Below are positions 1,888 through 62,681 of a stretch of DNA of 64,000 bases, piece after piece. Each line of letters opens with the position of its first letter. Within the stretch, counting starts at the first letter, position 1. Position numbers and translations under genes: made by a program. Origin of the DNA: Opitutaceae bacterium. GTDB lineage: Bacteria > Verrucomicrobiota > Verrucomicrobiia > Opitutales > Opitutaceae. The notes beneath the pieces were generated by a model, which was given only the letters and a program-made list of their open reading frames with translations, searched no databases and had not been told where the DNA came from. The DNA lies in NCBI GenBank assembly GCA_015075305.1, contig JABTUS010000003.1, positions 372,001-436,000 of the forward strand. The letters are read 5' to 3'.

Positions 1888-2142
1888 TGTGGGTTCAGGT
1901 TGGGTTGAGAGTGGGTTGGGTGAAAGGGATTGGTCGATTGCCAGTAAATCGATTTGCGGGACGCGGCATTGGCAGGCATCCGCGGGGATCGGAAGCGATG
2001 CGCCGAAAGGCTGGGCGCGGAGGTAACCATCATCGCGATTATGGTATCGGCGGCCGCGTCGACCCGCAACCCACGGAAACACGGGGAGCCAGGAACCCCC
2101 GACAACTTGAGCGAGGGATTCAGGCCCCCGGCGATGCGCCGG

Positions 2143-3597: not shown

Positions 3598-3768
3598 GAG
3601 GAAGTGGTGGCGCTGTGGTGAACGCGGCGGAGGAAACGCCTGCCGGAGGAAGGCAAACGATCGGGCGGCAGGGATGCAATGCCCGCCTTGCGCCGATTGA
3701 CTGCTTTCGAGCGGACGACGCAGAAAGTTCCCCCGCGGTGCAGGCGCCGGGCGCGTGCGGAGGTGTGA

Positions 3769-4815
3769 CTAAAGGACCACGGTGACCTTGGCGGCGCGTT
3801 CGAAGTTGCCCGGCACGTGTCCCGCGAGGGCGGCCAGCGCAAGCGAGAGCAGTTGAACGGGCAGCATTTCGAGCATCGGGCGAAGCCGCTCGGGAAGAGC
3901 GGGAAGCCGGAAAGGACCGGGCGCGGCTGATTCGCCGATGACAATCGCGTGGCCGCTCATGCGGCGGATGTCGTGCGCGAGGGACTCGTTGAGGTGCACC
4001 ATCGAGGGATGGCCCGCGAAAACGAGCGCGTAGAGTCCGGGGCCTATGAGTTCGAAAAGGCCGTGGCGGAACTCCGGCGTGCTCATGCCCTCCGCCTGAA
4101 TGCGGGTGGATTCCTTCAGGATGATCGCGCCTGTTTCGACGGCCGCCAGCGAGGCGCCGCGTCCGGTGAGAAAAAGGTGCCGGAGGTTCGTGAATTCACC
4201 CGCGAGCCGGCTGACCTTGGCCTCCCAGTCGGCGTAGTAGTCCCTCACCGCATGCGCGGCCTGGCTGAGCTCGGCGAGAATCGCTTCGATGTTCTCGCCG
4301 CACAGCGCGCCGCCCAGCCACTCCAGCGCGGCGAGCGTGCACAAATAGGTCTTGCACGAGACGGAGTGCTCCGGACCCGCCCGGATCACGATGCTGGCGT
4401 CCGCACGCCGGGCGAGCGGTGAATCGGCTCCATTGGTGACGCCAATGACGACCGGCTTCGACTTGGACCGTGCGACGATGTCGAGCAGCTCCACGGTTTC
4501 CGCGCTCCGTCCGGACTGCGAGACCGCGATGACGAGCGTGCGGGAGTCGAGCAGCGCGGACTGCGCGTAGATGAGTTCGGCGGTCTCGACCACGAAGGCG
4601 GTGCGTCCGGCCTGCACCAGGTGAAGGCGCAGCGGATGAACGACGTGCAGGGATGCGCCCATGCCGGTGAGCACGATGCGCTCCGCCGCAAACGCCCCTG
4701 CGGGGAGCCGGGGAAGAGAGGACAGGGCCGGCAGCGTGCCGGCAAGCGCGGCCGGCTGTGCGAGAAGGTCGCCCAGATAGGGACCGTTGATTTTCGACGC
4801 TGGATCTTTGATCAT
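3769..4815 (-). CDS. SIS-domain sugar isomerase/deaminase-like protein
   Basis: A 348-residue protein with two sugar-isomerase (SIS) domains, as in the C-terminal half of GlmS and in AgaS/FrlB-type amino-sugar enzymes. The first domain has LTGMGASLHV and the phosphate-binding SQSGRSAETV; then GPEHSVSCKTY corresponds to the GPE-x-x-VASTKAY region of GlmS. The second domain has LFLTGRGASLAAVETG and EFRHGLFELI, matching the GlmS-like ELKHGP segment. There is no glutaminase domain, so it is probably a catabolic amino-sugar phosphate enzyme or sensor rather than a synthase. It lies directly after the start of the adjacent beta-helix gene region, with only 43 bases between them. Confidence 0.8.
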   Translation of the reverse strand: MIKDPASKINGPYLGDLLAQPAALAGTLPALSSLPRLPAGAFAAERIVLTGMGASLHVVHPLRLHLVQAGRTAFVVETAELIYAQSALLDSRTLVIAVSQSGRSAETVELLDIVARSKSKPVVIGVTNGADSPLARRADASIVIRAGPEHSVSCKTYLCTLAALEWLGGALCGENIEAILAELSQAAHAVRDYYADWEAKVSRLAGEFTNLRHLFLTGRGASLAAVETGAIILKESTRIQAEGMSTPEFRHGLFELIGPGLYALVFAGHPSMVHLNESLAHDIRRMSGHAIVIGESAAPGPFRLPALPERLRPMLEMLPVQLLSLALAALAGHVPGNFERAAKVTVVL

Positions 4816-43286: not shown

Positions 43287-44006
43287 TCACGGACGCGTCT
43301 GACCGATCGCTGCGGGTGTGGTGACGCGAAGGATCCGCCTCCACACCAGGAACAGGATCCAGGCAATGAGAGCCGTCACCACCGTGTGGCTGAGAAAATG
43401 CGCACCTTTCGCCATTTGATAAAACCCCATGATGCAGCCTGCGGCGAGTCCCGGGACGATCGTCAGGACGCGTGCACGCCGGGAGCTGGCGAGACCCACG
43501 AGGCCCAGCAGCGCGAAACCGCCGCTGGCGTGACCCGCCGGAAAGCAGTGTCCGCACCGGGTGGGCCTGTCTGAATCGGAATGGCGCTCGAGAACCCGGA
43601 CGTAGGGTTGGTCCCCTCCATAGGCGCGTATTTCAGACGGGCAGAAAACATTCGTGACCGACTTCAATTCCCCGATGAAGGCGGGAACCGTTCCGAGGGT
43701 TAGGAAGGCGACGAGCAGATTTCTTCGGACCGGCTCCGGAACGTGAAGACGGTTCCGCCAGGATTGCGGTCCGACAACGAGCGCGATGAGCGCGACCCCC
43801 ATCGTGATGAGCACCAGCTTGGGACCGGTGTAGAACAATGCCCGCGGCACTGCGGCATGGGCATCGATCAGCCAGCGCCTTGCCGCGAAGTCATACAGAT
43901 GATTCTGGACGAGCAGATCGAGAGGCGTGACCTCGAACAGCAGGAATGTCAGCGCCAGTGTGCCGACGGCTGGCCACAGTGTCCGGTCAATTCCTGTTCG
44001 CGACAT
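43287..44006 (-). CDS. PAP2-family membrane phosphatase
   Basis: A 239-residue membrane protein with the acid-phosphatase signature split as KSVTNVFCP, GHCFPAGHASGGFALLGLV (catalytic His region) and KGAHFLSHTVVTALIAW (second His, with Ser-His). The KxxxxxxRP first part is altered (KSVTNVFCP in place of a typical Arg-Pro), as in lipid A 1-phosphatase-like members. Its start overlaps the sulfatase-fold gene by 20 bases, so both are co-transcribed; together they suggest lipid A or other lipid headgroup modification. Confidence 0.85.
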   Translation of the reverse strand: MSRTGIDRTLWPAVGTLALTFLLFEVTPLDLLVQNHLYDFAARRWLIDAHAAVPRALFYTGPKLVLITMGVALIALVVGPQSWRNRLHVPEPVRRNLLVAFLTLGTVPAFIGELKSVTNVFCPSEIRAYGGDQPYVRVLERHSDSDRPTRCGHCFPAGHASGGFALLGLVGLASSRRARVLTIVPGLAAGCIMGFYQMAKGAHFLSHTVVTALIAWILFLVWRRILRVTTPAAIGQTRP

Positions 44007-46020
44007 GCTGCATGCTCTCCGAACTCTGGATTGCGCCCTGGCCGCCGTGCGCGAACAGCCAGCTCGCCGATTGATAGTACGCGATGGCATCGTCGACCAG
44101 CGAGGGGTCCGTCGGCTGGGGCGTGCCTGACTGCCGCATCTCGTCGTACTTGAACGCGAGTGACTGCCGGACAGGTTTGAGCACGGTCAGCGTGCCGTCC
44201 TTGAAGTATCCAAGCTTCTGGTAGTTTCCCAGCAGGGCCCGCCCGGAAAATCCGTCGGGCTGGTCGATCACATTCCATCCGTAGAACCGGCTCGGGTATG
44301 TCCACCCGAGCAGAGCCAGAAGCGTGGGAGCGACGTCGATCTGACTCGTGATGGTCTTCACGACACCCGGCTTGATCTGTCCGCCGGGCGCATAAATCAG
44401 CAGCGGGATGTGATAGTTCTGCAGTGGCAGCTCGGATTTGCCCGCGCTTGAGGCGCAATGATCGGCGACGATGATGAACACGGTGTTCTTGTACCAGGGC
44501 TTTGACTCGCAGTCGTGAAGGAGCTTCGCAATCGCGTAGTCCGTGTATTTCACCGCTCCCAGCCTTCCGGAAATCTTGGAAGGCAGGTCGATGCGCCCGG
44601 CCGGATACGTGTAGGGGCGGTGATTGGACGTGGTCATGACGAATTGAAAGAACGGCTTGTGCTCCTGATCGCTGCGATCGGCGCTTGCTATCGCCCAGCG
44701 GAACAAGTCCTCGTCGCACGCGCCCCAGACGTTCGCGAAGGTGACTTCGCTCCCGGGCACGGCGTTTCGGTCGATGATCTCGTAGCCGTTGCCGCCGAAA
44801 AAGTGGTTCATGTTGTCGAAGTAGCCGAATCCCCCGTAGATGAACTGCGTGCTGTAGCCGCGACTTCGAAAAACCGACCCGAGGGTGAACAGATTTTCGT
44901 TTCCGGGCCTCTTGATCAATGAGCGGCCAGGGGTGGGCGGGACGGAGAGCGTCAGCGCCTCCATGCCGCGGTCGGTCCGGTTTCCGGTCGCATAGAACGC
45001 ATCGAACACCAGGGCGTGAGGCACCAGTGCGTCCAGGTTGGGGGTCACGTTGTCCCGGCTGCCGTAGCGTGCCATGAAGCTGGCGCTCAGGCTTTCAACC
45101 GTGATCTGGATGACATTGAGGTGTTTCTCCGGCCCGTGATTTGAGACCAGGCGCAGCAGGTTGTCCTCGGCGCCGCCAAGGAAGCTGGAATGATCGCCCG
45201 CGGTGATGCCGCGCACCCGATGAAATGCGGCCTCCGTCGGCAGTGTCGGATAGAAGCGATCGTAGTCGATCTCGTTGGCGCGAAATGCGGCAAACAGGGA
45301 CCACAATCCGTTCCTGGCCAGTTCGCGGTTGTAGTTGTTCGAGAAATTGGGAATCGCCCCCTCGCTGAGCGCCAAACCAAGGGTGAGGCAGAACAGGCAT
45401 GCGAGCGCTGCGGTTCTCCAGCGGCGGCCCGCGGGTTCATCGGCATTGTCCAGCCAGAGCGACAGCCATCCGAGATTTCGGACAGCCAGATACATCGCCG
45501 CCGCGCCCACCGCGATTCCGGAAAGTATCAGCGGCATCGGATAGGATTCCCGGATGTTTCCAATGACCTCGGTTGTATAGACAAGATAGTCGACGGCTAT
45601 GAAGTTGAAGCGAACGCCGAATTCGTCCCAGAACACCCATTCGGCAACGGCGCCAAAGAGCAGCGCATAGGAGATGACAAACACGAACAGGTGGACTCCA
45701 AGGCGCGCCCAGGCGGAGGAGAAAAAGCGGCGCGGGAGGGCGGCGAGGATGAGCATGAGCGGGATGCAATACCATGCCGCGCTGCCGAGGTCGAAAAATT
45801 CGCCCAGGGCAAAGGCGCCCAGCAGGCTGCCGTTCCAGGACACCTCTCCAGCGGACTTGACGAGAAGGGCGATGCGCACCGCCAGACTGACGGTGAGCGC
45901 GAGAAGGGCGACCAAGAACGCCAGACCGCAGCGCTGCTTCAGGCCCGCCTTGGCGACGCTCACGATGTTTGTTCGAGTCGTGTGTGCTTGCACGCCTTGT
46001 AGGAGCGGCGTTCGCGGCAA
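43987..46020 (-). CDS. LTA synthase-like / phosphoethanolamine transferase-like membrane enzyme
   Basis: A 677-residue protein with five N-terminal membrane helices (to about residue 215) and a periplasmic sulfatase-fold domain. Metal/active-site segments: NVIQITVESLSASFM, YATGNRTDRGMEALTL (nucleophile Thr349), FFQFVMTTSNHRPY and FIIVADHCASSAGKS. Enzymes of this type move phosphoglycerol or phosphoethanolamine onto envelope lipids or glycans. With the overlapping PAP2 gene and a divergent two-component system, it looks like an envelope-modification locus like eptA/lpxE-type systems. Substrate not determinable. Confidence 0.85.
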   Translation of the reverse strand: MPRTPLLQGVQAHTTRTNIVSVAKAGLKQRCGLAFLVALLALTVSLAVRIALLVKSAGEVSWNGSLLGAFALGEFFDLGSAAWYCIPLMLILAALPRRFFSSAWARLGVHLFVFVISYALLFGAVAEWVFWDEFGVRFNFIAVDYLVYTTEVIGNIRESYPMPLILSGIAVGAAAMYLAVRNLGWLSLWLDNADEPAGRRWRTAALACLFCLTLGLALSEGAIPNFSNNYNRELARNGLWSLFAAFRANEIDYDRFYPTLPTEAAFHRVRGITAGDHSSFLGGAEDNLLRLVSNHGPEKHLNVIQITVESLSASFMARYGSRDNVTPNLDALVPHALVFDAFYATGNRTDRGMEALTLSVPPTPGRSLIKRPGNENLFTLGSVFRSRGYSTQFIYGGFGYFDNMNHFFGGNGYEIIDRNAVPGSEVTFANVWGACDEDLFRWAIASADRSDQEHKPFFQFVMTTSNHRPYTYPAGRIDLPSKISGRLGAVKYTDYAIAKLLHDCESKPWYKNTVFIIVADHCASSAGKSELPLQNYHIPLLIYAPGGQIKPGVVKTITSQIDVAPTLLALLGWTYPSRFYGWNVIDQPDGFSGRALLGNYQKLGYFKDGTLTVLKPVRQSLAFKYDEMRQSGTPQPTDPSLVDDAIAYYQSASWLFAHGGQGAIQSSESMQHVANRN

Positions 46021-46031
46021 ATGTTAGAAAG

Positions 46032-46069
46032 ATTACGCGATCGTAATGTTTTCGACATGCTCCCGTAAT
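46032..46069. promoter_or_regulatory. Candidate operator between LTA-synthase-like gene and response regulator
   Basis: Inverted repeat ATTACG-CGAT-CGTAAT at 46032-46047, with a third copy of CGTAAT at 46064-46069, in the gap shared by two divergent transcription units. OmpR-type regulators usually bind repeated half-sites, so this may be the binding site of the adjacent response regulator. Confidence 0.4.
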
Positions 46070-46229
46070 CCTCTCCCAGAGATCGTCGGAGCGGCGTTGA
46101 ATGCAATGAGCATGCGGCATGGGAGAGGCCCCCGCTTTCATGTCGCTCTGCATCGGGATTGCCAGCTGGCGGAGCTTCCTTTCTATCGACCGTGGCGTCG
46201 CGCAAGCGTCATTGTCGCGACCCGTACCC

Positions 46230-46904
46230 ATGCGCATCCTGGTGGTTGAGGACGAAAGGAAGGTGGCGGCCATGATCAAGGCCGGTCTGGAGGAGCGCGG
46301 ATACGCTGCGGAAGTGTGTCATGATGGCGAATCGGCGATGGCGCGGGTCCTCGGCGAAAACTTCGATGCCATGATACTCGACGTCATGATTCCCGGCCGG
46401 GACGGCCTCAGTGTCCTGCGGAAACTGCGGGATGACGGCTGCGTGGTCTCGATCGTGCTTCTCACCGCGAGAGGGGAGCTCAACGAGCGCATTGAGGGCC
46501 TTGATCTCGGGGCCGATGACTATCTGTCGAAGCCGTTCTCGATGACCGAGCTCTTCGCGCGACTGAATGCGGTGCTGAGGAGGCGCACGGGCGTCGGGCT
46601 CAACATTCACCGCTATGCGAATCTGACGCTGAACCTGGCGACGCGCGAGGTGCGGCGCGGCGACCAGGAGATCGAGCTCACGATGAGGGAGTTCGCGCTT
46701 CTCGAATGCCTCCTTCGCACGCCGGGCAAGGTTGTCAGCCGCGTCGAGCTGAGCCAGAACGTCTGGGGACACCAGTTTGATCCGGGCACCAATTTCGTCG
46801 ATGTGGCGATGCAGCGCCTGCGCCGGAAGGTGGACGATCCATTTCCGGAGAAGCTTCTCCAGACCCATCGGGGAGTGGGCTACGCGATTCGCTCTGAGTC
46901 ATGA
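46230..46904 (+). CDS. OmpR-family response regulator
   Basis: A 224-residue two-component regulator. Receiver: MRILVVEDERKVAAMIKAGL, phosphorylation site Asp51 in MILDVMIPGRDG, Thr in VLLTARGE and Lys in DYLSKPF. The C-terminal winged helix (LTMREFALLECLLRTPGKVV; VDVAMQRLRRKVDDPF; HRGVGYAIR) binds DNA. The start is chosen at 46230 because this gives the canonical N-terminus, though the frame is open to 46119. It overlaps the histidine kinase by 4 bases and is divergent from the LTA-synthase-like/PAP2 pair, its likely targets. Confidence 0.92.
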   Translation: MRILVVEDERKVAAMIKAGLEERGYAAEVCHDGESAMARVLGENFDAMILDVMIPGRDGLSVLRKLRDDGCVVSIVLLTARGELNERIEGLDLGADDYLSKPFSMTELFARLNAVLRRRTGVGLNIHRYANLTLNLATREVRRGDQEIELTMREFALLECLLRTPGKVVSRVELSQNVWGHQFDPGTNFVDVAMQRLRRKVDDPFPEKLLQTHRGVGYAIRSES

Positions 46905-48268
46905 AGCCGCTCCCCATCCGCTGGAGGTTTGCCGTCTGGACGTCGGGCATGACGACCTTCATTCTGCTCATCTATTCCGGATTCACGCTGCTCAACTTCT
47001 TTCAGGAGCAGATCGAGGCGGTCGATCTGGAGATAGCGGCGGAGGGAAACCGCCTGCTTGGCATGAAGGACCTCGCCGAAATGGAAGAGGAGGCGAGGGA
47101 GGTTGAATTGTATGCCCCCTGGCTCGGGCATGCGGTGCTCGATGACATTGGATCGGTGAACTTCCGCAGCGCCCGGCTGACGGACAGGCTGGTGCGGGCC
47201 GCGCACGAGACGGGCGTGCCGCGAACGTTTCAGGAAGGCGGGGACAGCTGGAGGATCGCGGTGTTTTCCCGTTCGGGGATGTCGGTTCTCATTGCCTACA
47301 ACCTGGACGAGGTTTGGAGCACCCTGGAGGACCTCGTGATGGCGTATGCGTTTTCGCTGGCAATCGTGGTGGGCATCACGGCCGCATGCGGCTGGTGGAT
47401 TTCCGGACGACTGCTTCGGCCGCTTGGGGAACTCACTGCGGCGGTGGAGCGGGTCGAAACGGAGAAACTTGGCGAACGCATGTCTGTTCCGGCTGCGCGG
47501 GACGAACTTCAGCGCCTCACCATCGTTTTCAATGCGATGCTTGCGCGGCTGCAGGAGAGCTTCGAACAGGCGCAGCGATTTGCCGCCGACGCATCCCACG
47601 AGCTGCGGACACCGCTCACGATCATGCGGGGTGAGGTGGACGGCTTGATGCGCGCGCAGGACATTACCCCGGAGCACCAGAAAAGGCTGGTGAGCGTCCA
47701 GGAGGAGATTGCGCGCCTGCACCATATCACGGACAATCTGCTGTCGCTGGCCCGGTTCGACACGGGATCAGTGCAGATTCCCATGCAGGAATTGGATCTA
47801 TCCGCGCTCGTTGCGGAGGCCTGTGACGATGCTGAGCTTCTCGGGGAGAGCCGGCATGTCCGGATCGAGCGAGATTTGAACGGGCCGCAGAGGGTCGCCG
47901 GAGACAAATCTCACATCCGCCGCGTGGTGCTCAATCTGCTCGACAATGCGATCAAGTTCAACGTGCCCGGCGGGGTCGTACGCTGCTCGCTTGCCGCCGA
48001 GCGCACGGGAGCCGTGCTTCGAGTCGGAAACTCCGGGCCAGGCATCCCGTCCGAGATGAGGCCCCGGCTCTTTCAGCGTTTTTTTCGCGCGGATCTAAGC
48101 CGGGGTGACACTGATCGGGGGCATGGTCTCGGCCTGAGCCTCAGCCGCGAAATCGCGCGGGCGCACGGTGGCGACCTGCGGTTGTCGGACTCCACGACGG
48201 CCGATTGGACGGAGTTCGAGTTCACGATGCCCCCGGCGTTTGGAATCCCGGGATCCATGCGATCGTGA
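46901..48268 (+). CDS. Membrane sensor histidine kinase
   Basis: A 455-residue kinase with two membrane helices (about 12-32 and 148-168) enclosing a 115-residue periplasmic sensor, a HAMP domain (ISGRLLRPLGELTAAVERV), HisKA with His233 in ADASHELRTPLT, and a HATPase: N-box VVLNLLDNAIKFNV, G-boxes GNSGPGIP and DRGHGLGLSLSREI. Coupled to the response regulator by a 4-base overlap. The signal is unknown; an acidic periplasmic patch (EEEAREVELY) could sense cations or cationic peptides as in PmrB/PhoQ, which is speculation. Confidence 0.92.
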   Translation: MKPLPIRWRFAVWTSGMTTFILLIYSGFTLLNFFQEQIEAVDLEIAAEGNRLLGMKDLAEMEEEAREVELYAPWLGHAVLDDIGSVNFRSARLTDRLVRAAHETGVPRTFQEGGDSWRIAVFSRSGMSVLIAYNLDEVWSTLEDLVMAYAFSLAIVVGITAACGWWISGRLLRPLGELTAAVERVETEKLGERMSVPAARDELQRLTIVFNAMLARLQESFEQAQRFAADASHELRTPLTIMRGEVDGLMRAQDITPEHQKRLVSVQEEIARLHHITDNLLSLARFDTGSVQIPMQELDLSALVAEACDDAELLGESRHVRIERDLNGPQRVAGDKSHIRRVVLNLLDNAIKFNVPGGVVRCSLAAERTGAVLRVGNSGPGIPSEMRPRLFQRFFRADLSRGDTDRGHGLGLSLSREIARAHGGDLRLSDSTTADWTEFEFTMPPAFGIPGSMRS

Positions 48269-48324: not shown

Positions 48325-50448
48325 GTGCGTCTTGATGAACTTTCCAGCTTGCAGCAGTTGGTGCTGCCGGACCGGTGGCAGGCGGAGGCCATTCAGGCGC
48401 TGCGGGCGGGAAAGGATGTGATCGTCGACGCACCGACGGGGGCGGGGAAAACCTATGTTTTCGAGCGGTGGGCGGAGCAGACCAATTTTTCTAGGCGCGC
48501 GCTTTTCACCGTGCCGACGCGCGCGCTCGCCAACGACAAGTACGCCGAGTGGCGCGAGCGCGGCTGGCGGGTCGGCATCACGACCGGCGATCTCACCATC
48601 GACTCCCAGGCCCCCCTGGTTGTCGCCACGCTCGAGGCGGTGCAGCACCGGGTTGCGGCTCCGCGACACGAGTCGGGCGGCGATACGCCGCCGGAGTTCC
48701 GGCTGCTCGTTGTCGACGAATACCAGTGGCTCGCGGATGAGCACCGCGGCTCCCATTACGAGGGAGTTCTGCTTTCCGCCGCGCGAGGCCTGCAGTTGCT
48801 GCTGCTCTCCGGCGCGGTCGGGAATCCGGAGGATGTCGCAGCCTGGCTGAGGCGGCTCGGTCGCGACGTTGTCGTTGTTCAAACACGGCGGCGTCCCGTG
48901 CCGCTCGAGGAAGTCGAGGCTGATGATCTTGTGCGCGGTCTCCCGCGAACGGTGGAGGGATTCTGGTCGCGGCGCGTGGCGGGGGCGCTGCGCGAGGGGC
49001 TCGGGCCCGTGCTTGTCTTTGCTCCGCACCGCTCCGAGGTGGAGCGTCTGGCGCGACAGTTTGCGCGTGAGCTTCCCCTGCCGGATCCCCTGACATTGTC
49101 GCAGGAACAGGAGAGCGTCTGCGGACCTGGGCTGGCGAAGCTGCTGAAGGCGCGGGTGGCGTTTCACCACAGCGGTCTGACCTATGCGCAGCGCGCGGGT
49201 GTGATCGAACCGCTTGCGAAGGCCGGGCAGCTGCGCGCCGTCGTGGCGACGCTTGGTCTGAGCGCGGGCATCAATTTTTCCCTGCGCTCCGTCATGATCA
49301 CGGCGGGAAGCTATCGCCACGGCCAGCGCGAGCACGAGATCGAGCCGCATGAACTCCTGCAGATGGCGGGACGCGCGGGACGCCGGGGCCTCGATGAGAT
49401 GGGATACGTGCTCGTCAGCAGCTCGACGCCGCGGCTGCGGCGCGCGGCGCAGATGCGTTTGAAGCGTGCAGGGCCGCTGCCGTGGGCCTTCATGCTCCGG
49501 CAGCTCCGCGCCGGGGAAAACGTGCGCGCTGTGACGGCCGCCGCCGCGCATCGTTTTTTCACCGAGCAGCCGATGGTGCTTGGTGCGGAGCAGACAGGTC
49601 GGCGGCGATCCGGCGGTCTGCCGTGCGACCAGCGCACGGACACGGGACGCGCGAGACTCGTTCGACGGGAAAGGAACCCCTTCCCGGCGTGCCGCACCTG
49701 CGCGCATCGCGCGGAGTGCCTGGCACTTTCGCCGCAGCCCACGCTGCTCTGGCAGCTTCAGCGCGTGGGCGTGCTGGACCAGGAGCTCAGGCTCACGGCG
49801 CGCGGGGAGATTGTATCCAATTTTCTAGGACCGGAGGGGCTTGCGATCGCGGCGGCGCTGGAGGATCGTGCCTATCCCCTGGATGCGATCGTCTTTGACA
49901 TCGCGAACATCACGTCCGGCGAACGGTTTTCCGGAACCAACCCGCGCGTGCTCGGACGGCTCTCAGCGGTCTGTGAGAGGACCTATCGACGCCAGACAAT
50001 CGAGGGGTATCTCGAGAACGGCATTCCACCGCAGTATGGATTCGGTGCCGCGGACGTTGTGAAGGCGCGCGTTGAAGGCGAGCGCCTTCGCGCGCTTGTC
50101 GATGCGCAGGAGACCGCCGGTCGTGGGGACATTGATCGATTGATGACGGAGTGGCGCTCGCTGCTGAAACAGATCGCATCGGCTTCGCCGATCAGCGAAA
50201 CGGCGGTCTCTCACGGTTCCTGCTCACGACAACCCGGTGGAGAAGCGGCTGCGATTCGACTCATGGAACGGTGGGACAACCTTCGCTCACTCGCGCATGC
50301 TCACCTGAGTGAACTGCGCCCTGGGAGCCTGCCGGAACTGCCCGCGCTTCTGGCTGAGCAGCGGCGTCCGATCAATCATCGCTTCCACTCGCGAACGCAT
50401 GCGCAGACAATGAATCCCCTGGCGCGAAGGCCTGCGGTTTCCGCCTGA
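48325..50448 (+). CDS. Ski2-like superfamily 2 helicase with a four-cysteine motif
   Basis: A 707-residue helicase starting at GTG 48325. Motifs: Q-like LPDRWQAEAIQALRAG, Walker A DAPTGAGKT (35-43), Ia VPTRALANDK, DExH-box as DEYQ (131-134), SGAVGN (motif III), FAPHRSEVERLARQ, VVATLGLSAGINF and the motif VI QMAGRAGRRGLDEMGYV. That set is Ski2/Hel308/Mtr4-like, although the winged-helix/ratchet parts are short. An insert at 434-465 has Cys434, 456, 459, 465 in the spacing C-X21-C-X2-C-X5-C, as in AddB/Cas4 iron-sulfur domains. Function unknown: DNA repair or RNA metabolism. Confidence 0.85.
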   Translation: MRLDELSSLQQLVLPDRWQAEAIQALRAGKDVIVDAPTGAGKTYVFERWAEQTNFSRRALFTVPTRALANDKYAEWRERGWRVGITTGDLTIDSQAPLVVATLEAVQHRVAAPRHESGGDTPPEFRLLVVDEYQWLADEHRGSHYEGVLLSAARGLQLLLLSGAVGNPEDVAAWLRRLGRDVVVVQTRRRPVPLEEVEADDLVRGLPRTVEGFWSRRVAGALREGLGPVLVFAPHRSEVERLARQFARELPLPDPLTLSQEQESVCGPGLAKLLKARVAFHHSGLTYAQRAGVIEPLAKAGQLRAVVATLGLSAGINFSLRSVMITAGSYRHGQREHEIEPHELLQMAGRAGRRGLDEMGYVLVSSSTPRLRRAAQMRLKRAGPLPWAFMLRQLRAGENVRAVTAAAAHRFFTEQPMVLGAEQTGRRRSGGLPCDQRTDTGRARLVRRERNPFPACRTCAHRAECLALSPQPTLLWQLQRVGVLDQELRLTARGEIVSNFLGPEGLAIAAALEDRAYPLDAIVFDIANITSGERFSGTNPRVLGRLSAVCERTYRRQTIEGYLENGIPPQYGFGAADVVKARVEGERLRALVDAQETAGRGDIDRLMTEWRSLLKQIASASPISETAVSHGSCSRQPGGEAAAIRLMERWDNLRSLAHAHLSELRPGSLPELPALLAEQRRPINHRFHSRTHAQTMNPLARRPAVSA

Positions 50449-51716: not shown

Positions 51717-53255
51717 TCAGACCGTCAGTGTTTCTGCCAACGATCGATTCTGGTGAATTCTGGTATCAGGAAAAGTGGGTGCAGATGCCGTGCATCGGTG
51801 TTGCAAAGGCTGCTTTGTGTCGCGCTTCAGGGGCGCCTCGTGAGATTGAGGCACGCGTATTTCTGGAGCATGCTTTTGCGCCAGTGATCCTCGTTTCCGC
51901 CCCGAGGATTTCGGCTGCGGCAAGGACCTTTGGATTCCGTTTGAGGTCGAAATACTGTACCCCAACGCTTGCTTCACGACGTCGATATTTATTTGAGGCT
52001 CCTTGGAACGATTCTGGGCGTCCCGGATCTCCAGGACAGCGCGGCGAAGCCGAGCAAATGGGAGGTCGCCTGATGCGGCGAAACTGACGAGAAGCTCTAG
52101 AATCTCATTGGAGGCGTAGGGAAATTCAAGCTGAGCAACGGCCGCGATATCCGCTCTATTTGGCGCTGGATTCAACCTTGCCCACTTCATGATCCTTCCG
52201 CGAAACTGATTGGTGTTGAATCCGGTTGTCCTCTCCATCTCTTGGATTCGTCCGGTAAACTGTGGGGTGACAACCAGGACGACTGGGATGCCGCGATTCA
52301 CAAATTCGGTGCGGATGTATTCCAATCGCTTCATTGATGCGCGTTGCGATAGCCCGAAAAGACAGTGGGCTTCATCGAAAATCAACATGAGGTCACGGCT
52401 TTGGGTCGCTGCGCGAATCTGTAGCCGCAGTTCGCCGGTATCGCCCTTGTTGGATTCGCCACAACCGATGGCTTTCCAAATCTCCTGGTAGAACTGCTGG
52501 TCGTTGGTTCCCGCCGTGAGGTCGATCAGCCGTGCGCAATCGGAATTACACTCCTGCCAAAGGCGAACTCCCATTGATTTCCCCAATCGTTCAGCTCCCT
52601 CAATTACGCCGAGCGTTTTTGATTGATGGCAGAAACGGAGGACGTCCGCCACATGCGAGGTGATAGATGTCTGTGCGACGCGATCGCGCGCCGATTGCCT
52701 GCGGGCCTCAATGGCGGTCCAAAGCACATCCATGACTCCTTCAAAATAGGGAAAGTGAATCTTCCTGCCAGGCGACAAACAGAAATCATGAAGCACGCGC
52801 GGCAAGAGAAGGACGCGTTCACGGCATATCTTGATCAACTCCGCTCCTGTGGCTTTTCGATTTCGCGGATTAAGGTCCGCACTTAATTTTGAATAGTCCC
52901 TATCGTTCCAAGCCATTTCCATCTTGATTGCATCTATTGAGCGATGGTCGTGGTGGTCGATCTCTCCGCAAATCGCCTCATAGACTTCTCCACTGTAGAT
53001 ACTTTGCAGGCTGACGCCTGCGGCGCGAAGAGACGGCGTTCCAAGCTTGTCGGGTACGACCCGCTTCAGCATTTCAAAAGCCAACTGAACGAGACCGCCC
53101 TCCTGATGAGAGATCGCGTGAAGCAACCACGCGAGACGGCGGGATTCCGAATTCGCAATGCTCTCGACCGCCGTTGCAACTTTCTGGGCAGGGAGCGGCG
53201 GCTGCGAATGGTCCGCGCGCAGTTCAGAGAGTTCGATTGGTGCAGTTGGACTCAT
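51717..53255 (-). CDS. MuB/TnsC-like AAA+ transposition ATPase
   Basis: A 512-residue ATPase that should load the transposase onto target DNA and govern target choice and immunity. Walker A is GAERLGKS (220-227), slightly degenerate, and Walker B is LMLIFDEAH with Asp294 and Glu295; sensor-like VVLVVTPQFT follows. The N-terminal 200 residues have no family I recognise and are larger than in MuB (312 residues in total), so a DNA- or partner-binding role is likely. The C-terminus is a basic disordered tail. Last gene of the operon; it overlaps the transposase gene by 4 bases. The 327-base gap up to 51389 holds the left end. Confidence 0.75.
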   Translation of the reverse strand: MSPTAPIELSELRADHSQPPLPAQKVATAVESIANSESRRLAWLLHAISHQEGGLVQLAFEMLKRVVPDKLGTPSLRAAGVSLQSIYSGEVYEAICGEIDHHDHRSIDAIKMEMAWNDRDYSKLSADLNPRNRKATGAELIKICRERVLLLPRVLHDFCLSPGRKIHFPYFEGVMDVLWTAIEARRQSARDRVAQTSITSHVADVLRFCHQSKTLGVIEGAERLGKSMGVRLWQECNSDCARLIDLTAGTNDQQFYQEIWKAIGCGESNKGDTGELRLQIRAATQSRDLMLIFDEAHCLFGLSQRASMKRLEYIRTEFVNRGIPVVLVVTPQFTGRIQEMERTTGFNTNQFRGRIMKWARLNPAPNRADIAAVAQLEFPYASNEILELLVSFAASGDLPFARLRRAVLEIRDAQNRSKEPQINIDVVKQALGYSISTSNGIQRSLPQPKSSGRKRGSLAQKHAPEIRVPQSHEAPLKRDTKQPLQHRCTASAPTFPDTRIHQNRSLAETLTV

Positions 53256-55711
53256 CCCTCGTATGGATTGATTTCCTTCACGCCCAAACGGGCAAGGTGC
53301 TCGAGACTTGCGGTGAGTTCCGGCGTGATGGACGAACTCCGCACTGTGGTGCCGACAGATTGAGCGGCTCTCGTAGCGCGATTCGCGAGGCGGTTTTGCT
53401 GTTGCATGGATGCGTGCATCTCCGCCTGCTGACTTTCCATCTGAACGCCGAGCCGTGATGTCGGAGGATCGGCCAGGATAAGATTGCGGCGCACACGAAG
53501 GAACTCCTCGGGGAAGTTTTTCTTCAGATGGCCAAATAGCGTGCGCGCATGTTTCGTGTGCGCGTGATTTTCTCGCTGCGCCTGGGAGATCTGCTCGGCG
53601 GAGGCATTGTACGCGTCAACCTTGGTTGACCGTTGAACGGTAAACGGATTCCGGCTGTCGAGATCGGTGATGCAGATTGAGTTGGGATCCTCGGGATTGA
53701 ACCATGCAAGGACCTTCTCTCCCTGCTTTGCGCCCGTGAACTCGTTCTTGTAGGTAAATTTTCGACGACCGATGGAGATCGTGACACCGTTGGCTTTCAC
53801 ACGTGTTTCGACCCGACTGCGACTCAAAAGGAATCGATATTCGGATCCCAGTCTTACGGGTGGATCACGACGAAGGGTGACAAATGCGGACTCAGGGGAT
53901 TGCCCGTTCAGCAGCTTCCCTTCCTGCCGTTCAGTGTTGTAGACGTTGCAGATGGATTCCAGTTCCGTCATCCATTCCGGCATGGAAAAGAAGAATTCCG
54001 CCGGGTGTGCTCTTCCTGCCAGGACTGCCTGCAATGCGCGCTTGGTTTCCTCCGGGCAGTCAACCCGCTCATCGCGGCCGCAGTAGCCTCGCAAACGGTT
54101 CATCTTGTCCTGGAGCGCCCCGAGAACACGCTCGACGATCTTGGCGCGGGGGGTATGCGCATGACGCACGTTCACCCCGAGCGCCGAAAGGCCGTGCGTG
54201 AAATCTTTCCACGGAGTGCGTGTGTGCCGCGAGCCGTCGATCAGCTTGGATTCCCAGATGCCTCGCTCGAAATACAAGGTTTCCGGGAGACCGTACTCAT
54301 CATGAAGGCGTGCAATCCCTCGGACGATCTCGATCGAATCGTAGGTCTTTTCGGGAATGAGCTGAAACGTGACAATGTAGGTGGTGCGCGTATCAATCCA
54401 CGGCAGGAACTGACCTCTGGTGAGAATGGGCTGCCCCTTCTCGTTCAAGCGCGGGCGGCCGCAGGCGTCAGGCTCCCAGAAGTAAACAGGCAGGGTGCAA
54501 TCGTCGCTTTGGAATTCCAGCCCGGATGCCATGTTCCCATAGTCGCGCTCGATGTATGGCCCTTGGAGCTTCGCGTGGTGCGGGCCGATGACGTGCGGCC
54601 TCAGCCGTTGCACTTCCGGGCCGAGCGATCGCCGAATCGAATGCGGGACGTGTGATTTGCGCGCAGACAATACGTCATAGGTGGCGCACACAGAGTCAGG
54701 CATCCATCCTTCACTGGCGGCTTCACGCCATGCCTGGGCGAGGCCCCCGGCACTGTGCATTGCGCGAGCGACAAGCTTCTCTCTAAACCGGCCGGGAATC
54801 TCGGAGGCGCGGCAACGCCCGTTGGCGATGCGACCGTCGGTCAACGCAACCAAGCGGCGGCCTCCGGCGCGCCATTTCGCGATGACCCGTGAGATTTTTC
54901 GTTCCAAGGCGCGTCCTCGCGCCGGAATGAACGGCACTTTGTTTTCAATCACTCGGCGAAGGTCCCGCAAGGCCTTCGTCTCTGAAACTCCTTCACAGGT
55001 CGCTTCATGCAGGCAGGAGCAGGCGGAGTCCCAGAACGTTGAAAGAGCCTTGTCGTCAATTTGGCCCTCCTTCATCAGAAGGACCGAGGTGTGAAGCATC
55101 CCGTGCCAGCGCTCATCTGAACCAACGATGATTGTGGAAGTCTTTTTGCGGCTGAGACGGTCGGGAAGATAAATTTCCAATCTGTCCCATGCTTCGGCGC
55201 CGCGATCGCGGGATAGCGTGCGATCAATGAGCCGATCAAAGTGGCGGCGAGAGACCGTTGAACCAAACGTCGACGCATACGCTCTGAGGCCGGCATCGAT
55301 GACCTGCTCACGATCGATTGCGGAGAGGCTCAGTTTTTCAAGGATCGATCCAAGGACACTTTGAAGTCGCTGCGCATGCTGCAGTGTTGCGGCTGGAAGT
55401 TCCGCGAGAGGGATGGATGGCTCCCAATTTCCTGGAGGATGAAGCAGGAGGCGCTCAGTCGAATTGTATCCCCGGCGGGTAGCTTCCTCTTCGAGGCGTT
55501 TCTGAAGGTCAATCGGCAGCGAACAAAACAACCAGGCTGCGGTTCTCTGACCGTTCACCAATGCAACGCCGTCCGGGGTGACCTCAAAAAGCGCGCGACG
55601 TACGCTCCGCGGTGGCCGGGACAAGGCGTCAGCGATCGCAACGGCCGTGTACATTCCGGCGGTGGGCATCACTGGATATTGTGGCAGGATTTGTTGTAGG
55701 AGACTCGACAT
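53252..55711 (-). CDS. Mu-type DDE transposase
   Basis: An 819-residue transposase, larger than MuA (663). N-terminal 190 residues look like DNA-binding helices (YTAVAIADALSRPPRSVRRA). The integrase core has the first acidic residues in FQSDDCTLPVYF (Asp403/404), a second position at LYFERGIWES (Glu482) where relatives carry Asp (LYFDNG), and Glu527 in AKIVERVLGAL. The Mu C-terminal beta-barrel follows (ISIGRRKFTYKN, KVLAWFNPEDPNSICITDLD). A Glu at the second site would be unusual. It is coupled to the ATPase by a 4-base overlap. Confidence 0.85.
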   Translation of the reverse strand: MSSLLQQILPQYPVMPTAGMYTAVAIADALSRPPRSVRRALFEVTPDGVALVNGQRTAAWLFCSLPIDLQKRLEEEATRRGYNSTERLLLHPPGNWEPSIPLAELPAATLQHAQRLQSVLGSILEKLSLSAIDREQVIDAGLRAYASTFGSTVSRRHFDRLIDRTLSRDRGAEAWDRLEIYLPDRLSRKKTSTIIVGSDERWHGMLHTSVLLMKEGQIDDKALSTFWDSACSCLHEATCEGVSETKALRDLRRVIENKVPFIPARGRALERKISRVIAKWRAGGRRLVALTDGRIANGRCRASEIPGRFREKLVARAMHSAGGLAQAWREAASEGWMPDSVCATYDVLSARKSHVPHSIRRSLGPEVQRLRPHVIGPHHAKLQGPYIERDYGNMASGLEFQSDDCTLPVYFWEPDACGRPRLNEKGQPILTRGQFLPWIDTRTTYIVTFQLIPEKTYDSIEIVRGIARLHDEYGLPETLYFERGIWESKLIDGSRHTRTPWKDFTHGLSALGVNVRHAHTPRAKIVERVLGALQDKMNRLRGYCGRDERVDCPEETKRALQAVLAGRAHPAEFFFSMPEWMTELESICNVYNTERQEGKLLNGQSPESAFVTLRRDPPVRLGSEYRFLLSRSRVETRVKANGVTISIGRRKFTYKNEFTGAKQGEKVLAWFNPEDPNSICITDLDSRNPFTVQRSTKVDAYNASAEQISQAQRENHAHTKHARTLFGHLKKNFPEEFLRVRRNLILADPPTSRLGVQMESQQAEMHASMQQQNRLANRATRAAQSVGTTVRSSSITPELTASLEHLARLGVKEINPYEG

Positions 55712-55722
55712 CCCGAAAGCAA

Positions 55723-56064
55723 TCAGGCTGGTTGCCCGATATTGGAAAAGGTCCCTGCCGCGGGGCCGGCTACGCAGATTTGTAGCTCGTTTGATTCACT
55801 CATTCTGACCGTGATATTCAGGAGCACCCGTCCATTTGCGGTCTCAGCGTCCTTTTGATTTTTTGCCGCCCACATGCGCGGCTCGCACACGCGTTGCCAG
55901 AAGGCAGACAGAGCGCCATTGCCAACCTGCAATCCAAACTGAGCGAGAATTCGGCGGCGCGCTTCTGCATAGGTCACCCGCTCTTGCGTCAGCCACATGA
56001 ACAGGCTGTCCTGGTAGTTCGATGGAAGCTGCAGAAGCACGGGAATTTTTGCTGGTTTAGGCAT
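55723..56064 (-). CDS. Small element protein, paralogue of the 117-residue protein
   Basis: A 113-residue protein whose middle (YAEARRRILAQFGLQVGNGALSAFW, given here with a break: YAEARRRILAQF, then GLQVGNGALSAFW) matches the product of 57378-57731 (YQSATNRILKEF, then GVKISVGALQCAY). Both look like small HTH-type proteins, reminiscent of Mu gp27 (DUF3486), but I cannot confirm that. It overlaps the previous gene by 8 bases and lies 11 bases before the transposase. Confidence 0.6.
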   Translation of the reverse strand: MPKPAKIPVLLQLPSNYQDSLFMWLTQERVTYAEARRRILAQFGLQVGNGALSAFWQRVCEPRMWAAKNQKDAETANGRVLLNITVRMSESNELQICVAGPAAGTFSNIGQPA

Positions 56065-56509
56065 GGCGGGTGGATTGCCGCAGTCGGAGGGTTGATCGCA
56101 GATGGCGCTTGCCGCGGACCGCAGGCCGTTTCAGCGCATCGCGCTTTTCCACTAAATCGAAAGCCTCGCTCACAAGACGTGAAGTTTCGTTCTCAAACCA
56201 CCGGATCACACTGGAACGCCTGATGCCGGTGCCGGCGGCTGCCTTATGTTTTGGCCCACATTCCAGGAGGCACGCCAATGCGCGGCCCAAGTGAAGCGAC
56301 TCAAACACAAGCTCATCGATCTTCGTTTGGAGACTTTCGACAGTAAGATTGCGAATGCGTGTGGTAGACTTGCCATAGAATCCAATTCCTGGGCATTTTG
56401 ACCCGCACCCGCGGTGTTGGTATGGATTTGTCGGGAAAGTCTCTGCAAGGGCAGTTGCAAGCGCTGCAAGGAGGCAATGCGCCGGTTCAATCAGCATCAT
56501 GGCGCGCAT
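56057..56509 (-). CDS. Element protein of unknown function
   Basis: A 150-residue protein with helical segments (LTVESLQTKIDELVFESLHL; SEAFDLVEKRDALKRP) and a basic, Arg-rich C-terminus. It starts directly after the stop of the preceding 69-residue gene and overlaps the next gene by 8 bases. No recognisable family. Confidence 0.5.
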   Translation of the reverse strand: MRAMMLIEPAHCLLAALATALAETFPTNPYQHRGCGSKCPGIGFYGKSTTRIRNLTVESLQTKIDELVFESLHLGRALACLLECGPKHKAAAGTGIRRSSVIRWFENETSRLVSEAFDLVEKRDALKRPAVRGKRHLRSTLRLRQSTRHA

Positions 56510-56719
56510 CTATTGGGAAAGCGGCTGCTTTTCCACTTCCGCCGTATCCTCGGCAACGAAATCCTCAACATATCGCATCGCGATTTCTTTTGCCGACTTT
56601 CTCGTGGCAGGATCGTTGAGGTCGCTGAGGTGTAGGTTTGAAAGCACACCGTTGAGCGCGGCTGCTTTGTAGAGTTGTCGTACCGAAAAGGAAGGCGATC
56701 GACGCTTGTATTGGTTCAT
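56510..56719 (-). CDS. Small element protein of unknown function
   Basis: A 69-residue protein, basic at the N-terminus (MNQYKRRSPSFSVRQLYKAA) and acidic at the end (RYVEDFVAEDTAEVEK). No known family. Its place inside a run of closely packed same-strand genes supports it as real. It ends at the base before the next gene starts. Confidence 0.5.
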   Translation of the reverse strand: MNQYKRRSPSFSVRQLYKAAALNGVLSNLHLSDLNDPATRKSAKEIAMRYVEDFVAEDTAEVEKQPLSQ

Positions 56720-56799
56720 GAGAAATTTTGCTGGCCCCTTGTGCTGAGTATCCGCTGGGCCGACGTGATGTTCGAGGTCATGGGCGGGAGGCGGCGGAG

Positions 56800-57381
56800 T
56801 TATGCGCTGGTGCGAGTTTGGCCTTCGAGCGGGCGTGTCCTATCCCCTTTGGCGAAACGACTCTTTGCGGGCTCTTTCGGACGTCTCTCAACCTTTAACG
56901 CGGCGAGCGTTTGGCCGTTTGAAGCTTCATACTGGCGATTGCGGATCCGGAAAAGAAACTGCTCGAATCTCTGATTGAACCTCGTCACCTCAGCATAGGC
57001 TTCTCCGAATGTGATGTCGCTGCCTTCTGGTGCCTTTCCTGGCATCGAACCCAATAGTTCGATCTGCACATCGAGAGGTTGCTCATCCAGGCGGTCCAGA
57101 AGGTAGGTGAACGCTGGCAGCTCCCCGTCATACGGACACATTTCTTGAAGCTTCAATCGAAGCGCCGCCGCATATCTCCCAACGGTTTGAGCGGCATCGA
57201 AGAACTCGTCGGCCAGACGATGGCACTCCTCGCAGATTTCCGGCTCATACCAGAGGAGTGCAGCAGACTTGAGAATATTCGCCCGCTTGAAAACTGGTTC
57301 TGAGCGGCTCGTGTCCAGCGTGAAGTACAGGAGATTGGCCGGGCCATTTTCATTTTCGCTGAAAGGCATTTTCGAATTCAT
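56800..57381 (-). CDS. Element protein of unknown function
   Basis: A 193-residue, mostly helical, acidic protein (SAALLWYEPEICEECHRLAD; EAYAEVTRFNQRFEQFLFRI). It overlaps the 117-residue gene upstream by 4 bases. No domain recognised. A Cys pair (CEEC) near residue 50 could bind metal, but two cysteines alone are weak evidence. Confidence 0.55.
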   Translation of the reverse strand: MNSKMPFSENENGPANLLYFTLDTSRSEPVFKRANILKSAALLWYEPEICEECHRLADEFFDAAQTVGRYAAALRLKLQEMCPYDGELPAFTYLLDRLDEQPLDVQIELLGSMPGKAPEGSDITFGEAYAEVTRFNQRFEQFLFRIRNRQYEASNGQTLAALKVERRPKEPAKSRFAKGDRTRPLEGQTRTSA

Positions 57382-57731
57382 TTTTGGAGATTGAGGGTGA
57401 GGTTGATGGAGATGCTTTTGTTGTCGGAGCTGGCATCCACGGTAACTTCAGGATGGCGCTTCAGGGGCAGGCGGCGGGACAAACGGGTATAGGCGCATTG
57501 CAGCGCGCCCACGCTGATTTTTACGCCGAACTCCTTCAGGATTCTGTTCGTCGCCGATTGGTAGGAGATGCCCCGACCCAATGATCCGCCTGTCGTCAGC
57601 CAGCCGAATACGAGCTGCTTTTGATCGAGCGTGAGACGGTCGAAAGTCGAAACATGACTTGGATTCAGTTTGCGGAGCGTGTACATCTTGAATCGATTTG
57701 TTGTCCCGAACCCCTCCGCTCGGGACCACAC
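57378..57731 (-). CDS. Small element protein, paralogue of the 113-residue protein
   Basis: A 117-residue protein from a GTG at 57731 preceded by AGGA; ATG 57686 is an alternative start. The segment YQSATNRILKEFGVKISVGA is homologous to YAEARRRILAQFGLQVGNGA in the product of 55723-56064. Two diverged copies in one small element suggest a working pair, for example subunits of one DNA-binding complex. Its stop overlaps the next gene by 4 bases. Confidence 0.6.
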   Translation of the reverse strand: MWSRAEGFGTTNRFKMYTLRKLNPSHVSTFDRLTLDQKQLVFGWLTTGGSLGRGISYQSATNRILKEFGVKISVGALQCAYTRLSRRLPLKRHPEVTVDASSDNKSISINLTLNLQK

Positions 57732-57774
57732 GGATGGTCTTCCTGATCACATGCGTGTCAGGAGTCGGGAATTG

Positions 57775-58596
57775 TTAGGCCTGCGGCTCTTGATTCGCAG
57801 GAACTTCAACAGGCGCGCCAGAGGCAGCGCCGAGCGATTGACCTGCGATCTGCTCGTCTGATGCGCGATCATTGGGATCGGTGGGGTCATTGGGAACGCG
57901 CTGCGCTGAATTCTCGCGAGGCGGAAATTTCAATGGAGCCACAACGCGGCCTGCCGACATCGGTTCCCCTGTCGGATTGAAGGGGCTGCGTGTGGGCAGG
58001 AAACGCATCCAGTCCGGCACCTTTTTCGCCGCCTCAATGAGAACGGTTTCGATTGCCTCGGCGGCGACGAGCAGACTGGACCTCTCTTGGTATCCGGGAA
58101 ATTCCTCGAAAGGCTGATTCACGTAGGCCGAGTCCATACCCAGAAACCGAAAGACGGCGATCTGGCCGTCGGCATAGCAATGAGTGCGCCTTGCGGCCTC
58201 CTCAGCTGACTGTTGATCAGCGTAGAAAGGTTGCAGCGCGGCGACAATCGTTTCGAGCCTGTTTGCGAGTACAACAGAGAGTATTTTCGCAATCAGCTCA
58301 CCCGCGGGGCGAATCATCTCCCGAAGCGACTTGCACGCCTCAAGCATGGCCATTTTGCGGACCTCTTGTGCCTTGCGGCAGACATCGAGACGCACCTGCA
58401 TCTCTGTCGCCCGGCGGATTGCTTTGTCGTTGGTGTAGTCAATGTCGCCCGCGGCAGCGATGGCCTTGACAAATTTTTCCTCGTCTTCGATCGCGGTGAG
58501 CCAGGCCGTCCGCATGCGGGCGACAGTTTGAAGAGAATCTTGGATCTTCACCAAGAAACCCTTCGCAGTATCTATTCTTTCGGGATCAATATTCAT
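57775..58596 (-). CDS. Helical element protein of unknown function
   Basis: A 273-residue protein. Residues 1-130 form long amphipathic helices (IDTAKGFLVKIQDSLQTVAR; RRATEMQVRLDVCRKAQEVR), and the last 60 residues are Pro/Ala-rich and probably disordered. It follows the portal gene by 20 bases. In Mu the gene after the portal encodes a head-morphogenesis protein, but I see no similarity to it. Confidence 0.55.
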   Translation of the reverse strand: MNIDPERIDTAKGFLVKIQDSLQTVARMRTAWLTAIEDEEKFVKAIAAAGDIDYTNDKAIRRATEMQVRLDVCRKAQEVRKMAMLEACKSLREMIRPAGELIAKILSVVLANRLETIVAALQPFYADQQSAEEAARRTHCYADGQIAVFRFLGMDSAYVNQPFEEFPGYQERSSLLVAAEAIETVLIEAAKKVPDWMRFLPTRSPFNPTGEPMSAGRVVAPLKFPPRENSAQRVPNDPTDPNDRASDEQIAGQSLGAASGAPVEVPANQEPQA

Positions 58597-58616
58597 AGCA
58601 TTCTTGAAAGCAGTTG

Positions 58617-60008
58617 TTACCGATTGCGGAGAACGGACAGGAGCATCGGGAGTCCATACCCGACAGCAAATTTCGAGCTGCCTGGCTTCGGCGCGTCCGG
58701 CAAATCCTTGACCGTATCGCGCATGCGCGCTTCAGGCTCTGGGAGTAATTGCAGAAATTGTTCCAGAGCGGTCCGCTCGGCGGCGCGGTTCCTCGCGAGG
58801 GATATCGAACGACTCAACGAGGAGGGAATCGATGTGGGGTATCGTATCGCGGGCATTGGCTCAACGGCCGCGAGCTTCAGGCCGGTTTTTTCACTCAGCT
58901 CCGCAGGGTTCACCCGGAAGCCGGCGGCTGCGGCTTTCACCGCGTGTTCCAAAATCGCACCTGCATCCCGCTTGGTTCTTGGAGCTAGCTGGAAGTATGC
59001 GAGAGCCGGTTGATCGTCGGACAAACCCAGGATGGCACGGTCAAATTGACGCTGGAAGATTTCAGATATCTCCACGGCCTCCGCTTGCGCGAGGATTTCG
59101 AAAGTGTTCTGGTGCGCAGCGCTCAGGCCGGTCCCGAGGCCGGTGGGCACCGCCAGCATCGTGAGTTTGCCAGCTGTGCCGGCGAGAACGAGCTGCTCAT
59201 CCTGGTAGCTCAAGTGATCGCGGAATGGATTGATCCCGCGCGCACCGTCGCCCGCCGTTTGGATCTTCGCCCCCGAGGGAAGCGTGCCGCGCATGTCGCC
59301 GATCACAGCCTCGGCCATGGCCTGGTATTCGGCCTCCTTCCCCTGCGGAGTATTGGCGGGCATCTCGACGAATGCCGGCGGCACACCGTACACCTCGACG
59401 AATCCATCCCAGTCCTTCTGGGAAAGGTTCTTGCGCAGGAAGCAAACGAGCCCGATCTCATTGATCGGCGACTTCACTTCGCGTAGCAGGAAGTGCTTTG
59501 AATCAATTGCCTGTCCGCAAGAGGCCCGATCGCTGGCATCCGCGTGATAGCGCCACTCCCCGGTTTGAGGATCCCGCGACCAGTGCCATTGCTCCACGGG
59601 TTCGAGCCGGATCACATCTGAATGAGATGCCGCTCCTTCATAGTGCTTTTCCAAGTGGGAATACCCCCGGAATTCCGCAAGGGCAAGAAACGCAATCGCC
59701 TCACGCAGATTGGAAATTTTTTCGTATGCATCGCGGAGAATCCTCGCCTGGGTGTCCGCCTTCAGGGACTCGGCGCCGCTCACCTGCTTGATGTCCCAAT
59801 CAAGTTTCTGGATCGCTCCAATGCGAAGCCGAAGCAAGCCGCGGAGGGTTGCGTCCCGCTTCTCAATGAATCGATAGGTCCATTGCAAGTCTGCAAACCT
59901 TCCGCGTTCTCCCTCCTCGAGAAATGCGACTGCCCGTCCAAGCGTGATCCCGCGGAGTGGGTTGTACTGGGCGCGCCAGCCAGCAGATGCAATTTTCCCC
60001 AGGCTCAT
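58617..60008 (-). CDS. DUF935 portal protein (Mu gp29-like)
   Basis: A 463-residue protein with the DUF935 portal pattern: EEGERGRFADLQWTYRFIEK, then IQKLDWDIKQV, and DWDGFVEVYGVPPAFVEMPA, matching Mu gp29 FAEFLEIYGLPMRVG. The following GTLPSGAKIQTAG and QFDRAILG are also as in gp29. A portal forms the ring through which phage DNA enters a capsid. The start at 60008 is preferred (long upstream extension has no similarity). It lies 2 bases after an HTH gene, with no terminase or capsid neighbour. Confidence 0.85.
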   Translation of the reverse strand: MSLGKIASAGWRAQYNPLRGITLGRAVAFLEEGERGRFADLQWTYRFIEKRDATLRGLLRLRIGAIQKLDWDIKQVSGAESLKADTQARILRDAYEKISNLREAIAFLALAEFRGYSHLEKHYEGAASHSDVIRLEPVEQWHWSRDPQTGEWRYHADASDRASCGQAIDSKHFLLREVKSPINEIGLVCFLRKNLSQKDWDGFVEVYGVPPAFVEMPANTPQGKEAEYQAMAEAVIGDMRGTLPSGAKIQTAGDGARGINPFRDHLSYQDEQLVLAGTAGKLTMLAVPTGLGTGLSAAHQNTFEILAQAEAVEISEIFQRQFDRAILGLSDDQPALAYFQLAPRTKRDAGAILEHAVKAAAAGFRVNPAELSEKTGLKLAAVEPMPAIRYPTSIPSSLSRSISLARNRAAERTALEQFLQLLPEPEARMRDTVKDLPDAPKPGSSKFAVGYGLPMLLSVLRNR

Positions 60009-60010
60009 GT

Positions 60011-60328
60011 TCAAACGACCCGTCGTTCGAGAATTCGCGCGATGTCCGAGGCGATTCCCTGGAGGGTTTCTTGGGGCATCGCTTCCAGATGCTGGTTGCG
60101 ACTGGTGCTGCTCACGCGGCAAAGCATGAATCGATGGAACTCCTCCACTGAAACACGCAGCGTCTGACGCGTGTTGATGGAGCGGCCGAGATGGAAGGCT
60201 CCCAGAGTCCCGTCATGAATCAGGTTTGTGACGTGGTCTGGTGACACCCTGAGAACCCGCGCGATTTCACCGACGGTGAGTGTCTTCCGCCCAGGGAAAC
60301 TGAGAATGCAATCGACGTTTTCGCTCAT
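60011..60328 (-). CDS. Excisionase-like HTH DNA-binding protein
   Basis: A 105-residue protein with a MerR/excisionase-type helix-turn-helix: LTVGEIARVLRVSPDHVTNL followed by IHDGTLGAFHLG and RVSVEEFHRFM, as in DNA-binding excisionase-family proteins that read their target with one short HTH domain. It overlaps the next upstream gene by 4 bases. It may control the operon or assist transposition. Confidence 0.75.
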   Translation of the reverse strand: MSENVDCILSFPGRKTLTVGEIARVLRVSPDHVTNLIHDGTLGAFHLGRSINTRQTLRVSVEEFHRFMLCRVSSTSRNQHLEAMPQETLQGIASDIARILERRVV

Positions 60329-62656: not shown

Positions 62657-62681
62657 TGGGGAAATATGTGGCGAAGTGGAG
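62657..62681 (+). promoter_or_regulatory. Possible MraZ-box-like repeats upstream of mraZ
   Basis: TGGGG (62657), TGGCG (62669) and TGGAG (62677) are spaced 12 and 8 bases apart upstream of mraZ. MraZ proteins bind repeated TGGGN or GTGG-type boxes about one turn apart, so this may be the autoregulatory site. TTGACC at 62637 could be a -35, but no good -10 follows at the usual distance. Confidence 0.35.

Follow-up and report, generated by a model that had tools for sequence, protein, structure and literature searches.

Iron-sulfur clusters are known in superfamily 2 (SF2) helicases of the Rad3 type and in superfamily 1 (SF1) enzymes of the Dna2 type, and none from the Ski2/Mtr4/Hel308 class is known to us. 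Our literature search found no report of an iron-sulfur Ski2-like helicase or of the family described here, papers on the archaeal ASH-Ski2 proteins, possibly with a cysteine motif, lying outside its coverage. Among nucleases, AddB and Cas4 hold a [4Fe-4S] cluster by one remote cysteine followed by a CX2CX5C triad, with a domain in between (PMC3466216). In Mtr4 and FRH the winged helix bears a projecting arch (PMC5931499). Here we analyze a helicase gene in a 64,000-nucleotide stretch of the genome of an Opitutaceae bacterium (contig JABTUS010000003.1, positions 372,001 to 436,000), referred to as the window. We think it probable that the gene is a chromosomal, single-copy member of an unnamed Verrucomicrobiota family of Ski2/Mtr4-type helicases in which a metal centre held by four cysteines, most likely [4Fe-4S] and otherwise zinc, staples the arch site.

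The window helicase matched the Pfam models DEAD and Helicase_C above their cut-offs, and several Ski2-like NCBIfam models matched its core only. Its motifs I, II, V and VI are of the Ski2 type, with residues that vary little or not at all across 65 sequences, and the Suv3-type DEXQ model of Pfam also matched at motif II. Against solved structures, a profile of 65 relatives scored 189 bits with SKI2, 183 with MTR4 and 162 with Hel308. A structure model based on the 65-relative alignment reached a mean predicted local distance difference test (pLDDT) score of 89.1 and a predicted template modelling score of 0.88, with pLDDT of ∼83-94 in the blocks spanning residues 420-470, which include the cysteines discussed below. 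Foldseek and VIA-align ranked MTR4, FRH and SKI2 at the top (VIA-align Z of 32.4 over 558 residues, 32.2 and 30.8, respectively; 552-563 residues for the three) and Hel308 behind them (27.8). Residues 11-672 of the model aligned to MTR4 and SKI2 over 558-563 residues with a root-mean-square deviation of 3.4-3.5. By these matches the protein has a complete Ski2-type ring, closed by the winged helix and the helical ratchet bundle. The Pfam DSHCT profile (PF08148) remained below its cut-off (12.3 versus 22.7 bits), although the fold of this region aligns to MTR4 and SKI2. Together, profile and fold show that the window helicase belongs to the Ski2-like class of SF2, and the class assignment made in the original prediction, from the sequence of the window, is confirmed by both.

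That prediction had also suggested a repair helicase with an iron-sulfur pin. One alternative reading is a DNA-repair helicase of the Hel308/HELQ kind, its cysteine module being an iron-sulfur element like that of XPD, FANCJ or DinG. Hel308 is indeed the next closest fold and has a compact core without arch in common with the window protein, and the NCBIfam Hel308 models matched this core at 117-131 bits. The same models, however, were missed by far at the family level (117 bits versus an equivalog cut-off of 1200), and MTR4, FRH and SKI2 outscored Hel308 in both profile and fold. By fold, the model lies nearer to the RNA-exosome helicases than to the DNA-repair helicase Hel308, by a modest margin. 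Taking into account the position of the cysteines as well (see below), we regard a Hel308-like repair helicase as unlikely; that the protein acts in DNA repair is unproven.

Cysteines are present at positions 266, 434, 456, 459, 465, 550 and 633 of the translation, and those at 434, 456, 459 and 465 display precisely the C-X21-C-X2-C-X5-C spacing that had been predicted. The CX2CX5C triad appeared in 78 of 200,000 shuffles of the protein (0.04%). At the DNA level the corresponding codon pattern is no rarer than chance (5 occurrences in the window, 3.8 expected); since it is this common in DNA, the claim rests on conservation. Relatives were collected by scanning species genomes and by searching the genomes of relatives and those of the phylum and the class, after which further regions were fetched, resulting in a final alignment of 173 distinct verrucomicrobial homologues. 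Of these, 118 keep the complete set of four cysteines with an unaltered CX2CX5C triad. The condition under which the prediction was to be refuted, cysteines that are not conserved among homologues, therefore does not hold.

The family has two architectures, a compact one represented by the window protein, and one in which an insert of ∼185 residues separates the first cysteine from the triad. In the window protein 21 residues separate the first cysteine from the second, as against 184-186 in five insert forms and 256 in another insert-bearing relative (L101), while the spacing within the triad is unchanged; only its distance to the first cysteine varies. The predicted AddB/Cas4-type arrangement of a remote cysteine plus CX2CX5C is thus present, and its staple topology is clear in the insert-bearing relatives. 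The 118 four-cysteine homologues comprise 67 compact and 51 insert-bearing proteins, and strict spacing holds in both architectures down to ∼45-50% identity. Another 50 homologues, all insert-bearing, contain no module cysteines. Three, from a single family (f31; L190, L195 and L196), have Cys-Cys-Cys-Asp (CCCD), the fourth cysteine being replaced by aspartate, and two within Cys-less lineages have a single stray cysteine. The first set of 104 sequences had contained 63 proteins with four cysteines, 41 with none and no intermediates. The loss of the cysteines is essentially all-or-none. It could be argued from the 50 relatives without any module cysteine that the four residues are incidental and bind nothing, but the all-or-none pattern and the strict spacing in 118 sequences of two architectures make this hardly credible.

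A 97-row tree built without the columns of the cysteine module required a minimum of two changes of cysteine state and one of the insert; in a 70-row tree drawn from the first set these numbers were three and one, respectively. A Ski2-like paralogue used as root proved too remote, on branches of 5 changes per column, to decide between gain and loss. Both architectures share the context of the cysteines (PCG..TD..RAR before, C..C.....C after), and because of this shared context the common ancestor of the compact and insert-bearing forms most likely had the four cysteines. Joint loss in a few lineages would then explain the Cys-less relatives.

The alignments place the cysteine module past motif VI, in the winged-helix domain, at the site of the arch. 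The Ski2 profile alignment stops around Ski2 residue 836, equivalent to window residue 415 and just ahead of C434. The insertion of Ski2 begins close to this residue 836. As the alignment ends here, the arch of Mtr4 and FRH projects out of the winged helix and cysteines 434-465 follow directly, the module occupies the arch site. The arch itself, consisting of coiled-coil arms and a KOW domain, was not found in the compact form, in which only ∼77 residues lie between positions 415 and 492 and Pfam detected no KOW. Nor did Pfam detect a KOW domain in the insert of the relatives; a weak WCX match was obtained in 9 of 29 members. The model of L101 (pLDDT 73.5) predicts, with middling confidence, that its insert (residues ∼556-670) is rich in beta structure. 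Searched alone, the cysteine module gave no sequence match among solved structures. As cysteines 434-465 fall outside the interval between motif I (36-43) and motif II (131-134), the XPD-like pin was not borne out, and the same position argues against a Hel308-type helicase with an XPD-like cluster.

The four strictly spaced cysteines are lost together, and for this reason they very likely bind one metal centre, iron-sulfur or zinc. One remote cysteine plus CX2CX5C is the pattern of the [4Fe-4S] staples of AddB, Cas4 and Dna2 and of the cluster tail of Nth and MutY, while zinc sites usually consist of two cysteine pairs, which speaks against zinc in a choice that sequence alone cannot make. 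Given a metal, iron-sulfur is the somewhat more probable identity, because the spacing is that of the Cas4 and AddB clusters. A structural Zn2+ module, without redox or iron function, on a Ski2-type helicase is the less probable alternative, though one to be taken seriously: it would account equally well for cysteines that are lost together and for the CCCD variant, and in DUF3799 the same AddB-type four-cysteine arrangement is reported to bind a zinc ion (PMC3466216). This zinc precedent is one of several points that weigh against a [4Fe-4S] staple. The metal is deduced from sequence; the gene neighbourhood gives no pointer to RNA or DNA; and the 50 Cys-less relatives, plus the two with one stray cysteine, imply that the helicase fold does not depend on the centre.

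In the compact form, the span between the first and second cysteines contains the strongly basic sequence TDTGRARLVRR. R442, R444, R447 and R448 are kept in 57 of 57 compact homologues, and these four arginines suggest that the loop of residues 442-448 contacts nucleic acid. The mechanism that we infer, from metal binding and the iron-sulfur identity to the loop contact and the RNA or DNA substrate, would be as follows. The ring formed by RecA1, RecA2, the winged helix and the helical bundle would use ATP to thread a single RNA (or DNA) strand through its channel. The four cysteines at the Ski2/Mtr4 arch site would hold a single metal centre, most probably [4Fe-4S] and failing that zinc, by which the TDTGRARLVRR loop, or the ∼185-residue insert in relatives, is stapled to the winged helix. 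If the arch is a guide, such a staple may provide a rigid basic element where duplex or partner enters.

Of the 137 genera sampled from the class, 69 contain the family, roughly one half. It was not found in other classes of the phylum as far as these were sampled, other phyla not having been searched exhaustively. One helicase of the family (L074) comes from a contig that bears the label Blastochloris sp. (Alphaproteobacteria) and is probably mis-binned. The genome from which the window derives contains a second Ski2-like helicase of 905 residues (L141, G000:C13:3000-9500, open reading frame 1397-4114, minus strand), ∼31% identical over the core, in which no cysteine cluster was found. The PADLOC models for HamB and BrxHI, themselves Ski2-like, matched the core of the window helicase at 1e-22 to 1e-12. 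An anti-phage defence helicase of this kind would nevertheless be very improbable: the broad presence by descent in the class contrasts with it, no partner genes were found, neighbourhood comparison revealed no gene that is conserved beside the helicase outside its close relatives, and the collections searched contained neither a plasmid nor a phage copy. Distribution and lone gene are more in keeping with a housekeeping helicase than with defence.

The positions of the gene and its elements are compiled in Table 1. A response regulator and a histidine kinase are encoded just upstream, the kinase ending 57 bases ahead of the helicase start, and the upstream region 43287-48268 contains open reading frames for a PAP2-like phosphatase and a sulfatase-like protein (lipoteichoic acid (LTA)/lipid A modifying type), named by eye only. 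The helicase is adjoined by the remnant of a Mu-like transposable prophage (51717-60122, minus strand) with an AAA ATPase reading frame (MuB/TniB-like), an 819-residue reading frame that reads like a MuA/TniA-type transposase without Pfam match, and a portal protein of the Mu type (PF06074, 4e-37). After the remnant, mraZ is found at position 62676.

Table 1. Helicase gene of the window and the elements located within it
Feature	Residues	Window positions	Strand	Basis
Ski2/Mtr4-like SF2 helicase gene, 707 residues, GTG start		48325..50448	+	open reading frame
Motif I (Walker A), APTGAGKT	36-43	48430..48453	+	near-invariant among relatives
Motif II (Walker B), DEYQ	131-134	48715..48726	+	D131, E132, Y133 invariant
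Motif VI, QMAGRAGRRG	346-355	49360..49389	+	sequence and alignment of relatives
Four-cysteine module C434-X21-C456-X2-C459-X5-C465, assigned to winged-helix domain at Ski2/Mtr4 arch-insertion point	434-465	49624..49719	+	alignments
Basic loop RARLVRR between C434 and C456	442-448	49648..49668	+	alignment of compact homologues
Winged helix, second half, past the cysteine module	∼472-496	49738..49812	+	model/fold; position by sequence inspection
C-terminal helical bundle, counterpart of ratchet/DSHCT domain	564-663	50014..50313	+	model/fold alignment

With four-cysteine, Cys-less and domain-filled members, the family offers natural relatives in which to examine both the contribution of such a cluster to a helicase and the evolution of the arch site. 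The CCCD relatives represent a natural ligand swap that is useful for separating a cluster from zinc. If true, a [4Fe-4S] staple could link the surveillance of RNA or DNA with iron or redox state.

Compared with known systems, the window helicase shares with the staple nucleases AddB, Cas4 and Dna2 the remote cysteine plus CX2CX5C and the variable distance between them, but it differs in fold, lacks a RecB nuclease domain and, in the compact form, separates the first cysteine from the second by a mere 21 residues. The Pfam search detected neither a RecB-type nuclease nor any other nuclease family, and kinship with AddB or Cas4 was rejected; on the alignments, the resemblance is one of topology only. 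Like XPD, FANCJ and DinG it is an SF2 helicase with four clustered cysteines, but these follow motif VI, in the winged helix, whereas the cluster of the former lies between motifs I and II. With Hel308/HELQ it shares a compact Ski2-like ring without arch; in contrast to these, it has a cysteine module in the winged helix, lower scores and a value far under the Hel308 family cut-off. Like Ski2, Mtr4 and FRH, finally, it carries an extra module at the arch insertion point, but the compact form has the four cysteines instead of an arch or KOW domain, a DSHCT profile below cut-off and DEYQ as motif II. The chances are about even, in our judgement, that this is the first Ski2/Mtr4-type family with a [4Fe-4S] cluster, one that would staple the base of the arch site and be kept with either a 21-residue basic loop or a ∼185-residue arch-like insert inside the staple.
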